From Thermoplasmata archaeon (GTDB taxonomy: Archaea; Thermoplasmatota; Thermoplasmata; Lutacidiplasmatales; UBA184), in assembly GCA_021816955.1 (NCBI GenBank), contig JAKAWP010000011.1, positions 1 through 35,761 on the forward strand: 35,761 nucleotides of DNA, read 5' to 3'. Of this stretch, positions 12,088 through 16,205 are shown piece by piece. A program made the translations under genes and the position numbers. The notes under the pieces were generated by a model. It had not been told where the DNA came from. It searched no databases and worked only from the letters and a program-made list of their open reading frames with translations. Within the stretch, counting starts at the first letter, position 1, and the number at the start of each line of letters is the position of its first letter.

Positions 12088-12916
12088 GGCGTTCCGCGCG
12101 GCGCGCGATGCGCGTCGGCCGATCGTGATGCCGTACTGGCTGATCGATCGCGCCCGGCATCGGGAGCTCCCGGCGGTCGCGACGGCGCTGGTGCGGGCCG
12201 GGGCGACGGCGATCGAACTCGGCCTCCCGTTCAGCGATCCGATCGCCGACGGCCCCGTCCTCGAGGCCGCGGCCGGTCGCGCCCGGGAGCACGGCACCCG
12301 GTTCGCCGACCTGCTCGACGCGGCCCGGACGGTCCGCTCGGTCCTGCCGGTCGCCCTGTTGACCTACGCGAACCCGTTGTGGGTGCGCGGACTAGCGCGG
12401 AGCTTTCGCGAGCTGCGAGCCGCGGGCGTCTCCGCGGTGATCGTCGCCGATCTCTCGCTGGAAGAATCCAGGACGTGGCGGCGGGCGGCGGACCACCAAG
12501 GCCTCGACCTCGTCCTCCTCGCGGCCCCCCAGCGGGGCACGGAGCGCATCCGTCGCATCGCCCGCGCGACCCGGGGGTTCCTCTACCTCGTTTCCCGCTA
12601 CGGGACGACCGGCGCCAGCGCGCGCGGCGCGGAGGTCGACCTGCGCCGTTTGGTCCGGGCCGCCCGAGCCGCGGCGGCGACGATACCGATCGCCGTTGGC
12701 TTCGGAGTGCGAGACGCCGCTTCGAGCCGTCGGGCGATCGCGACCGGAGCCGACGGGGTGATCGTCGGAACGATCCTCGAAGAGATCGCCGAGCGTCATC
12801 CGCACCCCGCGGCGGCGATGGGAGCGACCCTCCGCGAGATCGCCGTCGCTGCCGATCGGGCCCTCGCCGAACGAGACGGCCGGCGAGCCCGCCCGAGTCG
12901 CTTCAGAACGCGTTGA
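12071..12916 (+). CDS. trpA: Tryptophan synthase alpha chain
   Basis: GTG start at 12071; '[20 protein letters not shown]', '[12 protein letters not shown]', '[11 protein letters not shown]', '[13 protein letters not shown]', '[10 protein letters not shown]', '[10 protein letters not shown]'. Confidence 0.95.
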
Positions 12917-13661
12917 CGAGGAAGCCGACGAGAAAGCCGATCACGATGCCCACGTAGACGAGCGCCTGCTTCGCTTGGGAGGCCTCCCGGCTCTCTTCGG
13001 GGCCCAACAACGACCGGAGCATCGGAAGGATGCCGTAGAGGATGGCACCGATCGCGACGGCATCGAAGAAGATCACGAGCGGCGTCGACGAATAGAAGAA
13101 TCCGACGGCGGCCCCGACCACCGTAGGGAGCCCGCCGATCAGATACAGGCCGACGAGCATCGAGACCGGTACGGCCGATTCGCCGAGGAGCGGAGCGGCG
13201 ATCGGGAACCCTTCGGTGAAGTTCTGAAGGAGGAAGCCGACGAAGACGACCGTGAGGAACCCGAGGGTGCCGACCGACCACGCCGCGCCGAAAACGAGCC
13301 CCTCGGTCAGGTTCTGAAAGCCCATCGCGCTCGCCATGATGAGCGCCACCGCGAGGGGGCTCCATCGCCGGTTCCGCCGGCGGCGTTCGACCCCGAAGAG
13401 CAGGCCGTAGGCGCCCCCGACCCCGAGCAAGAACAGGCCGTCGTACAGCGGGTCCGTGAGGTACGGACCGCTCCCGGTATTGAGCGAAGCGACATCGGAG
13501 AAGATGTCCGCGAGGAGGAACACCAACAGGCCGACCGCCCCCGCGCTCAGCAGCTGGACCGTCCGGGCCTTCAGGTCCCGGTGGAGGACAACCGGCAGCG
13601 AGAGAAAGATCGATAGCCCCATGACGGCCGACAGACCGACCAATAGGGGAAAATTCGCCAC
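12903..13661 (-). CDS. ZIP-family divalent metal transporter
   Basis: GTG start; multi-TM protein with 'MGFQNLTEGLVFGAAW' and 'LLQNFTEGFPIAAPL' (ZIP TM4/TM5-like N-x-x-E-G motifs). Confidence 0.85.
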   Translation of the reverse strand: MANFPLLVGLSAVMGLSIFLSLPVVLHRDLKARTVQLLSAGAVGLLVFLLADIFSDVASLNTGSGPYLTDPLYDGLFLLGVGGAYGLLFGVERRRRNRRWSPLAVALIMASAMGFQNLTEGLVFGAAWSVGTLGFLTVVFVGFLLQNFTEGFPIAAPLLGESAVPVSMLVGLYLIGGLPTVVGAAVGFFYSSTPLVIFFDAVAIGAILYGILPMLRSLLGPEESREASQAKQALVYVGIVIGFLVGFLVNAF

Positions 13662-13691
13662 GAACCTCGCCGGGGTCGTCCGACAGGGACC

Positions 13692-13726
13692 CCGTATTAA
13701 AGCATAACGATGTGATGAAATATAGC
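13692..13726. promoter_or_regulatory. Divergent archaeal promoter region between ZIP transporter and HTH/ferritin-like regulator
   Basis: AT-rich island in high-GC sequence: 'ccgtattaaagcataacgatgtgatgaaatatag'. 'tttaata' on the minus strand lies about 35 nt before the ZIP GTG, and 'aaatata' on the plus strand about 30 nt before the regulator ATG. Confidence 0.5.
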
Positions 13727-13730
13727 ACGG

Positions 13731-13747
13731 CGTTCACGGTGTGAACG
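13731..13747. promoter_or_regulatory. Perfect inverted repeat CGTTCAC-GGT-GTGAACG, candidate operator
   Basis: 7-bp perfect arms with 3-bp spacer, between the putative TATA box and the regulator start codon at 13754. Confidence 0.55.
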
Positions 13748-13753
13748 ATTTCG

Positions 13754-14569
13754 ATGGCGGTCGAAGGGGATTCCGTTCGCGCCGGACGGAAAGAAGGCGG
13801 TCCCATCGCGGGGCCGGTCGGGTGGGTCCAGGTGACCCAAGCACTCCTCGCCCGCGAACTGGTCGAAGGGCTCGGGCTCTCGGAGCGCGACGCCGCCCGT
13901 CGGCTCGGTGTCGCGCCGTCGGCCGTCTCGCAGTACCTTTCCGGTAAGCGGCTCCGCCGGCAGCTCTCCTCGATCGAAGCCGGGACGGCGGTCCGGTCGT
14001 GGGCGGCCGGCCTCGCCCGCCGGCTCTCGAGGGAGCCGGACGATCCGTCGGCCGCCTCGGCGCGGGTGCTCGAGGCCGCGGGCGAGCTGGCCCGGCGGAT
14101 CGGATCCGTCCCGCTCGCCCCCGCGGAGGAGCCGCCGCGGCCCTACCGGCTGCGCCGGGCGCTCCGCCGCCGGATCACCGGCGAGCAGCTCGCCGTGGCG
14201 CTGTGCATGCGGCTCGCCCAGAAGTCGCGCGACGAACTGACCCGCTCGTTGTTCCGGCAGATCGCCTCCGACTCGCTGCGCCACGCGGAGATCGTCGCCT
14301 CGATCGAGACGTACCTCGAGCGCGGGATCGACCGGCCCCGCCCCTCGGGCATCACGTCGGCCGACCTCGCGGCGATGATCGCTCGGGAACGGGCGGCCGA
14401 ACGCGCCACCCCGAAGGGCGTCGGCCGGACGCTCGGAGGGCTCATGGGCCTCCTCTGGGCGAGCATGGAGGCGGACGAGCGAAAGCACGATGCGCTCCTC
14501 GAAGCGCTCCGTTCGCCCGAGCTGCTCGGCGAACCGGAGCCGGTGAGCGCCCGCCGTCGACCTCGCTAG
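13754..14569 (+). CDS. Transcriptional regulator: N-terminal archaeal HTH (COG2522-like) and C-terminal ferritin-like helical domain
   Basis: 'VTQALLARELVEGLGLSERDAARRLGVAPSAVSQYLSGKR' is a clear HTH. The C-terminal all-helical region has 'RITGEQLAVALCMRLAQ..ASDSLRHAEIVASIETYLE' and 'MEADERKHDALLEAL' (E-x-x-H). Confidence 0.75.
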   Translation: MAVEGDSVRAGRKEGGPIAGPVGWVQVTQALLARELVEGLGLSERDAARRLGVAPSAVSQYLSGKRLRRQLSSIEAGTAVRSWAAGLARRLSREPDDPSAASARVLEAAGELARRIGSVPLAPAEEPPRPYRLRRALRRRITGEQLAVALCMRLAQKSRDELTRSLFRQIASDSLRHAEIVASIETYLERGIDRPRPSGITSADLAAMIARERAAERATPKGVGRTLGGLMGLLWASMEADERKHDALLEALRSPELLGEPEPVSARRRPR

Positions 14570-15630
14570 GGGCGAACCCGCTCGAGAGCCAGGAACCGGG
14601 GGACGCCGTCGGCCGAAACTCCCGCGAGCAGAAACTCCTTGCGGACGCCCTGGGCGACGCGGACCCCCGCCGCGATCTCTGCCCACGTCGTCACGTGGTC
14701 GAGCGGCACGGCGTGCACGAGGTAACGGGCGTGGGCCTCCTCGGGGTTGCGTGGGTACGCGCGAAAGTGTGCGCCGTACTTGAACCCGGTCTTCACCACG
14801 AGCCGCCGTTCGCGCAGGTGGCGGTAGGCCGCGAGCCGTTCGCGGTAGCGGCGGTCGATCCGAGCGGCGCGGCGCTGAAACACGTCGAACGGCACTCCGC
14901 GGCCCGACCGCGCGTCCTTGAGCTCGAGCTCGCCGGTCTCGACGAGATAGGCGGCCTCGATCAAGCTGAGCTCGAGCCGGCTCCCGACGCGGCTTCCGAA
15001 GGCGAGGCCACGCCCGAGCGACTCCACGGCCGTCGGGTCGAAGATCAGCACGCGGTCCTCGCTCACCCATCCGGTCGTCGGCGTGCTGAGCCGGCTGCGG
15101 CTCAGCGTTCCGCTCGGACTGGTCCGGCGGACCCGGTAGTACGTCAGGTCCGACTCCTCGTCGACCACCCCGAGCAGGAGGCTCTTCTTCGAGCCGATCG
15201 TCCGGTCCGCGACCTCGAACAGCCGGCGCAGGTCGAACGGGGTGCGCTCGCTCACCGCGTCGACCCAGAAGCGGGCCGGCGTCTTGTGAAGGGTGCCGCC
15301 TCGCGGCAGGACCGCGAACGCCGTGACCGGAGCCGGCGCCCGCACGACGTACCCCCGCTGGCGGAGATCGCGGTAGACCAGGTATCGGACGCCGAACCCC
15401 GGCTCCGCCCGGGCGCTGGCGCGGAACAGCGCGGGCCACGGGACCGCCCGGCCGCGCCCGTTGACGACCTCGAGCCGCTGCATCTCGAGGAGGTACACCG
15501 CCTCGTACCGGTCGAGCGTGAGCGTCCCGTCCGCCCCAAGGGTGCCGAAGTACCCGCGTGCGTACGTCGACGTCGCCTCGGCCGGATCATCGAGCCGGAC
15601 GGTCGCGTCCGGCCGGACGACTGCGCTCAC
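14566..15630 (-). CDS. endA: tRNA-splicing endonuclease, two-repeat (alpha2-like) form
   Basis: GTG start at 15630. C-terminal catalytic repeat 'LVVKTGFKYGAHFRAYPRNPEEAHARYLVHAVP..GVRVAQGVRKEFLLA' with Tyr/His/Lys; degenerate N-terminal repeat 'EAVYLLEMQRLEVV..RYLVYRDLRQRGYVVRAP'. Confidence 0.88.
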   Translation of the reverse strand: MSAVVRPDATVRLDDPAEATSTYARGYFGTLGADGTLTLDRYEAVYLLEMQRLEVVNGRGRAVPWPALFRASARAEPGFGVRYLVYRDLRQRGYVVRAPAPVTAFAVLPRGGTLHKTPARFWVDAVSERTPFDLRRLFEVADRTIGSKKSLLLGVVDEESDLTYYRVRRTSPSGTLSRSRLSTPTTGWVSEDRVLIFDPTAVESLGRGLAFGSRVGSRLELSLIEAAYLVETGELELKDARSGRGVPFDVFQRRAARIDRRYRERLAAYRHLRERRLVVKTGFKYGAHFRAYPRNPEEAHARYLVHAVPLDHVTTWAEIAAGVRVAQGVRKEFLLAGVSADGVPRFLALERVRP

Positions 15631-16205
15631 GCCGACGGGCCCGGGCGTTCCGCCCGCGCCCCACGGAGGTCCGAGAGGGTGGCGAGCGCCTCCAGCCGTA
15701 CCCCCGCCGTGGCGAGCCGCTCGCGGGCCCCCATCTCGCGATCGACGACGACGATGGCGCGTTCGACGACCGCGCCGTGCTCCCGGAGGATCTCGACCGA
15801 TCGCAGCGAACTCCCGCCGGTCGAGGCGACATCCTCGATCAGGAGCACCGCGTCGCCGGCCGATAGCTCCCCTTCGAACGCCTGCCGGGTGCCGTGGTCT
15901 CTCGGCTGCTTGCGCAGGACGACAAACGGCCGGCCCAACAGGAGCGCCGTGGCGACGACGAGCGGGACCGCGCCGAGCTCCATGCCCCCGAGCCGAGGCT
16001 CGGCGCCGGCTCGGGCGGCGAGCGCGCGGGCCAGGAGCGAGAGCCGGGCCGGGTCGGTCCACGCCCGCTTCACATCGACGTAGACGTCGGACGTCTGGCC
16101 GCTCGTCAGCGTGAACCGCCCGAACCGGACGGCCCCGGCCCCGAGCAAAAGGTCGACGACTTCGGCCGGGGAAGGGGGAACGATACGCTCGGGGTTCGCC
16201 CTCAC
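15627..16205 (-). CDS. pyrE: Orotate phosphoribosyltransferase
   Basis: 'GAVRFGRFTLTSGQTSDVYVDVKRAWTDP', 'GMELGAVPLVVATALLLGRPFVVLRKQPRDHGTR', PRPP motif 'AVLLIEDVASTGGSSLRSVEILREHGA'. Confidence 0.93.
   Translation of the reverse strand: MRANPERIVPPSPAEVVDLLLGAGAVRFGRFTLTSGQTSDVYVDVKRAWTDPARLSLLARALAARAGAEPRLGGMELGAVPLVVATALLLGRPFVVLRKQPRDHGTRQAFEGELSAGDAVLLIEDVASTGGSSLRSVEILREHGAVVERAIVVVDREMGARERLATAGVRLEALATLSDLRGARAERPGPSA

Follow-up and report, generated by a model that had tools for sequence, protein, structure and literature searches.

Is the helical C-terminal region of an archaeal transcription regulator, encoded divergently from a ZIP-family transporter, a ferritin-like sensor that controls metal uptake? 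This question was raised by a 35,761-nucleotide stretch of DNA (contig JAKAWP010000011.1 of assembly GCA_021816955.1, hereafter the window), for which a sequence-only reading had proposed a candidate new type of metal sensor. The assembly has a size of 1.42 Mb, and among named genomes its closest relatives are Thermoplasmata MAGs, including one labelled Candidatus Lutacidiplasma silvani. The known metal sensors of prokaryotes belong to a small number of families (Fur, DtxR/MntR, ArsR, MerR, NikR, CsoR and CopY). The order represented by the window, Lutacidiplasmatales, is an acid-soil archaeal order for which one study describes aerobic and facultative anaerobic lifestyles (PMC9287336).

The ZIP-regulator locus and its distribution

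The divergent arrangement described from the sequence was recovered, with a gap of 92 bp between the ZIP and regulator open reading frames (Table 1); the start codon of the regulator is uncertain, relatives having HTH-proximal starts. Pfam and NCBIfam name the regulator solely by its HTH, and a protein-level search of a plasmid collection with the regulator returned no match. Convergent with the regulator (14566–16062) is a tRNA intron endonuclease whose N-terminal and catalytic domains are each matched twice in one chain by Pfam; within part of the genus this gene is still the neighbor of the regulator where ZIP has been lost.

The transporter itself scored 22.6 bits against Pfam Zip, under the cut-off of 35.1, but its identity was upheld by a profile of its homologues, which matched BbZIP (PDB 5tsa) at 1.1e-5 over 245 positions. 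The two proteins share the layout of xNxxEG in TM4 and QxxxEG in TM5, and differ in that the TM4 His of BbZIP is Gln, and its TM5 Asp is Asn, in ZIP proteins of the window type.

A scan of named genomes identified 77 regulator loci, comprising 69 from Thermoplasmata and near kin (including one record labelled bacterium and one labelled Euryarchaeota), four from Thermoproteales, two of these in complete Pyrobaculum genomes, and four from Aigarchaeota. Regulator identity within the genus is ~44–57%, and the locus counts given here are not independent because most homologues belong to one family of related MAGs. Two copies of the regulator were observed in some relatives (G002, G024 and G218).

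ZIP adjoins the regulator, either divergently or in a ZIP-regulator operon, in 52 of the 69 Thermoplasmata loci. Such adjacency recurs in f11 and f25, two further families within the class, in one of which regulator identity is 28%, so that the neighborhood with a metal gene is a conserved one. The order of regulator then ZIP was found solely at L106, by anchor position; two further loci with ZIP downstream were rejected since their apparent order arose from long open frames. Regulators of Thermoproteota and Aigarchaeota are not beside ZIP, and a search for ZIP in the four Aigarchaeota genomes with the regulator found none. The transporters beside the regulator are of two types, having either QN..EG twice (44 sequences) or HN..EG twice (9 sequences). 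These types differ at metal-site residues, with Gln versus His at both the TM4 and TM5 motif positions, and may transport different metals; no regulator residue at the predicted site stands out as tracking them.

Table 1. Features of the window and palindromes at related loci (positions are those of the window unless a locus is named)
Feature	Position	Strand	Basis
ZIP-family transporter, 252 aa, TM4 QNLTEG / TM5 QNFTEG	12903..13661	-	ORF, Pfam, homologue profile
Probable ZIP-promoter TATA box TTTAATAC	13694..13701	-	Aligned with relatives' conserved TTAAA; putative
Third half-site TCAC	13712..13715	-	30 bp from palindrome start, ZIP direction; comparative
Possible regulator-promoter TATA box AAATATAG	13718..13725	+	Sequence; putative
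Candidate operator palindrome TTCAC-GGT-GTGAA	13733..13745	.	Sequence, comparative conservation
Regulator gene, HTH + ferritin-like domain, 271 aa	13754..14569	+	ORF analysis, Pfam, alignment
Helix-turn-helix, residues 34–66	13853..13951	+	Pfam HTH_3, 2.2e-5
Ferritin-like four-helix region, residues 129–252	14138..14509	+	AF2 helices, Pfam, profile match
E144, predicted metal ligand, helix A	14183..14185	+	Invariant in alignment
D173-S174-L175-R176-H177, helix B half-site, SxxH replacing ExxH	14270..14284	+	Invariant; aligned with bacterioferritin E..H
E212, predicted metal ligand, helix C	14387..14389	+	Invariant in alignment
D241-E242-R-K-H245, helix D ExxH	14474..14488	+	Conservation in alignment
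ATAAC-N3-GTTAT palindrome, Calditenuaceae	L133 5652-5662; L135 6517-6527; L137 6470-6480		Phosphonate-type ABC importer promoter

The C-terminal region and its predicted metal site

The motifs that had first suggested a ferritin-like region were all present, these being GEQL (residues 143–146), SDSLRHAEIV (172–181) and MEADERKHDALLE (238–250). Sequence profiles indicate that the region is ferritin-like beyond a mere look-alike. PF02915 (Rubrerythrin) was matched by 46 of 47 homologues at E<=0.1 (best 2.4e-6), the window domain alone scoring 19.2 bits, under the Pfam cut-off of 22.8 bits, and the profile of the regulator family matched bacterioferritin at 4e-5 in an alignment spanning helix A to helix D, in which S174 is aligned with the Glu that begins the ExxH in helix B. 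The regulator has in common with rubrerythrin and bacterioferritin the pattern E, xxxH, E, ExxH on four helices, whereas it differs from them in being fused to an HTH, in its helix-B Glu always being Ser and in having a monomer model without a closed bundle.

The five predicted ligands (E144, H177, E212, E242 and H245) are near the mid-points of the four predicted helices and are invariant wherever covered in the Thermoplasmata, Thermoproteales and Aigarchaeota homologues, in keeping with the Glu and His ligands that the earlier reading called for. Residues D241, E242, K244 and H245 were kept in 77 of 78 aligned regulators, which are all of those reaching helix D, the remaining one being truncated. 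The partial degeneracy previously ascribed to the di-metal site was confirmed in that the helix-B ExxH is replaced by SxxH, but it does not represent decay, as the Ser is fixed (78 of 78 aligned regulators). Invariance of the seeded stretch is partly a selection artefact because the scan used the seed peptides DSLRHAEI and TR[AS][LVI][FL]RQIAS. Residues E144, E212, D241, E242, K244 and H245 are outside both seed peptides and still invariant, and an f11 homologue found independently of the seeds reads DSIRHGDVV, retaining the D, S, R and H.

The AF2 model of the C-terminal domain (pLDDT 94.6) has four helices (129–157, 161–189, 202–218 and 229–252) forming two hairpins, with helix C being short. 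Over 49 columns, Foldseek superposed helices A–B at 0.8 A on 1mft, a four-helix-bundle model belonging to a designed diiron family; the A–B hairpin was superposed on an encapsulated ferritin at 2.3 A. In comparisons of the full-length and domain models to closed ferritin bundles, the rmsd was mostly 9–20 A and only helices A–B superposed well, and Foldseek searches with the AF2 models retrieved ferritins, but no match below E 0.1. The sequence profiles thus speak for the proposed ferritin fold, of which the monomer model shows the four helices and the A–B pair but no closed bundle. Since no closed bundle is seen in the monomer model, the site may form across a dimer, with each chain completing its predicted site with its partner; alternatively, the lack of closure could be a model error.

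A conserved palindrome at ZIP promoters

An addition to the earlier reading of the locus is a candidate operator in the ZIP/regulator gap, a palindrome with perfect 7-bp arms (CGTTCACGGTGTGAACG, 13731–13747). Its core, TTCAC-N3-GTGAA, has one exact match in the genome, which is that in the gap, and shuffles of the window gave an expectation of 0.2 matches at <=1 mismatch. The palindrome was found with <=2 mismatches in all 29 divergent ZIP-regulator loci of the main set. ZIP-regulator operons have it before ZIP, exactly in 12 of 22 and with one mismatch in 5 of 22; before the regulator, 18 of 22 were at 4 mismatches, mostly the background level, given that segments drawn at random from these loci had 3–4 mismatches in most cases.

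Where the regulator is elsewhere in the genome, the palindrome was present at ZIP with <=1 mismatch in 11 of 17 loci (10 of 15 when near-duplicates were removed by hand), and several loci with a regulator but no adjacent ZIP have it before the regulator. Among regulator-less genomes, ZIP promoters of those >=90% complete have no palindrome; it does occur at two distinct ZIP promoters, in genomes 69% and 56% complete, in which the regulator may have been missed. Fisher tests gave p=1.3e-5 for the palindrome versus regulator presence or absence and p=0.0027 for unlinked loci versus near-complete regulator-less genomes, values which are not exact probabilities as the loci are related. Three genomes (G018, G029 and G276; L146–L148) retain ZIP and have neither regulator nor palindrome. 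Exact palindromes outside ZIP and the regulator, inspected in six relatives, had no promoter-like setting and no third half-site, and therefore no oxidative-stress regulon was seen there. Control of ZIP by the regulator via the palindrome is well supported by these independent lines of comparison, because the palindrome is conserved at ZIP and co-occurs with the regulator.

The third half-site, TCAC, begins 29–31 bp from the start of the palindrome (30 in the window) in 47 of the 52 distinct ZIP promoters and almost nowhere else. The order in ZIP promoters is palindrome, third half-site, then a TTAAA-like TATA box, with the operator thus on the upstream side of this box. That is the usual position for activators in archaea, but a protein adjoining the TFB element can also block that element. 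The layout is thus compatible with either activation or repression of ZIP. At the regulator promoter the window palindrome is between the possible TATA box and the regulator ATG, and therefore fits autorepression.

Related palindromes were found outside the main set. In both f11 genomes the ZIP-regulator gap contains a pair of TAAC-N3-GTTA palindromes with a distance of 22 bp between them. At three Calditenuaceae loci the operon adjoining the regulator encodes a phosphonate-type ABC importer and has a perfect ATAAC-N3-GTTAT overlapping its TATA region, this importer being beside the regulator in three of the four Aigarchaeota genomes. These palindromes share the AC-N3-GT core and the 3-bp spacing with the ZIP operator. 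Genome-wide counts of TAAC-N3-GTTA in f11 and Aigarchaeota revealed no clear enrichment, and because of this the extension of the operator to these groups draws on position and is suggestive only.

Comparison with known regulators and sensors

DtxR, MntR and IdeR exert one-component HTH control of metal uptake genes as dimers on palindromes, as is proposed for the regulator. The regulator differs from them in having an HTH_3/Cro-type HTH and a separate ferritin-like helical region as its putative sensor, and its Pfam matches at E<=1 include neither the Fe_dep_repress winged HTH and dimerisation domain of DtxR/MntR nor a FUR domain, in agreement with the suggestion that it is distinct from DtxR, Fur and MntR. 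DtxR-type genes sought in ten relatives gave weak matches, one of them over the cut-off. The HTH resembles the N-terminal HTH of L026–L030, which we take to be archaeal COG2522-like HTH regulators. The alignment to L026–L030 is restricted to the HTH part, and no ferritin-like region was found in the matches seen.

FBXL5 is a hemerythrin-domain iron sensor with a helical-bundle diiron-type site. A similar idea is represented by BRUTUS, in which such a site also serves as an iron sensor (PMC12022348). Both differ from the regulator in being eukaryotic ubiquitin ligases that have hemerythrin rather than ferritin-like domains and do not bind DNA. Our search of open-licence papers found no description of an HTH-ferritin-like regulator or of a regulator with such a sensor domain.

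Proposed mechanism and alternatives

As a whole, we think it probable that the protein acts as a one-component regulator of transcription, with a palindrome-binding HTH and a ferritin-like metal sensor controlling ZIP. A dimer of the HTH would bind TTCAC-N3-GTGAA and control both the adjacent ZIP gene and its own gene. The ferritin-like region would bind a divalent metal through E144, H177, E212, E242 and H245, with Ser 174 standing where a bridging Glu is usually found, and would signal how much metal is available, thereby restricting ZIP production to metal shortage. Comparative sequence evidence shows the domain make-up, the conservation of the predicted ligands, the ZIP linkage, the candidate operator and its co-occurrence with the regulator. 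Thus, the earlier proposal of a ferritin-fold sensor controlling metal uptake is supported by the linkage, operator and ligands, whereas its metal response is what we infer from them: the ligands and the target make metal bound by the ferritin-like region the best candidate for the effector. That metal would be Zn, Fe(II) or Mn(II), its binding would presumably be labile and not catalytic, and the site may close across the dimer. We lean slightly towards metal-dependent repression over activation by the apo-form. Weighing against this mechanism are the monomer models, in which the site is not assembled, the Thermoproteota and Aigarchaeota regulators, which have no ZIP beside them, and the differing metal-site residues of the two ZIP types.

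The regulator could control ZIP through the same operator but have a diiron-like site that makes its four-helix region a sensor of O2, peroxide or redox state, with ZIP belonging to an oxidative response. Rubrerythrins and hemerythrin-type sensors provide an analogue for such sensing, and rubrerythrin and bacterioferritin are the closest sequence relatives of the region. The lifestyles noted above for the order (PMC9287336), aerobic and facultative anaerobic, would also suit this explanation. We nevertheless regard it as unlikely, as Ser invariably replaces the bridging Glu that canonical diiron sites have and the exact palindromes inspected in the six relatives disclosed no oxidative-stress regulon. 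Somewhat less likely again is that the C-terminal region is a structural dimerisation bundle of ferritin-like descent, its invariant residues being structural and the effector being another one or absent. The missing closed site in the AF2 monomer, the loss of one bridging ligand and the variable neighboring genes outside Thermoplasmata are consistent with such a bundle, but the remaining ligand positions are invariant at 29–36% identity across phyla.

It is also conceivable that another regulator binds the palindrome and that the HTH-ferritin-like protein is merely its neighbor, since half-site palindromes of such kind are common for HTH dimers and the operator is known here from sequence alone. 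This we consider very improbable. The palindrome tracks regulator presence even when the two are unlinked, as indicated by the Fisher test, several ZIP-less loci carry it before the regulator and the f11 palindromes in the ZIP-regulator gap have equal 3-bp spacing.

Conclusions

A DNA switch is conserved before ZIP in dozens of species, which strongly suggests that the regulator responds to metal and is of a type not described before. On balance, we favor its being an undescribed family of archaeal metalloregulators, found in Thermoplasmatota, Thermoproteota and Aigarchaeota. In this family a ferritin-like region, with Ser fixed in place of the bridging Glu, would have changed from a ferroxidase-type site to a sensor that binds metal reversibly and is possibly assembled across a DNA-binding dimer, and the operator would be [T/A]T[C/A]AC-N3-GT[G/T]A[A/T]. 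If true, a storage or redox fold would have been reused as a sensor, and the combination of a ferritin-like sensor and HTH would add to the metal-sensor families one whose operator and target are specified. In addition, the locus would offer a testable regulatory system for an uncultured order of acid-soil archaea.
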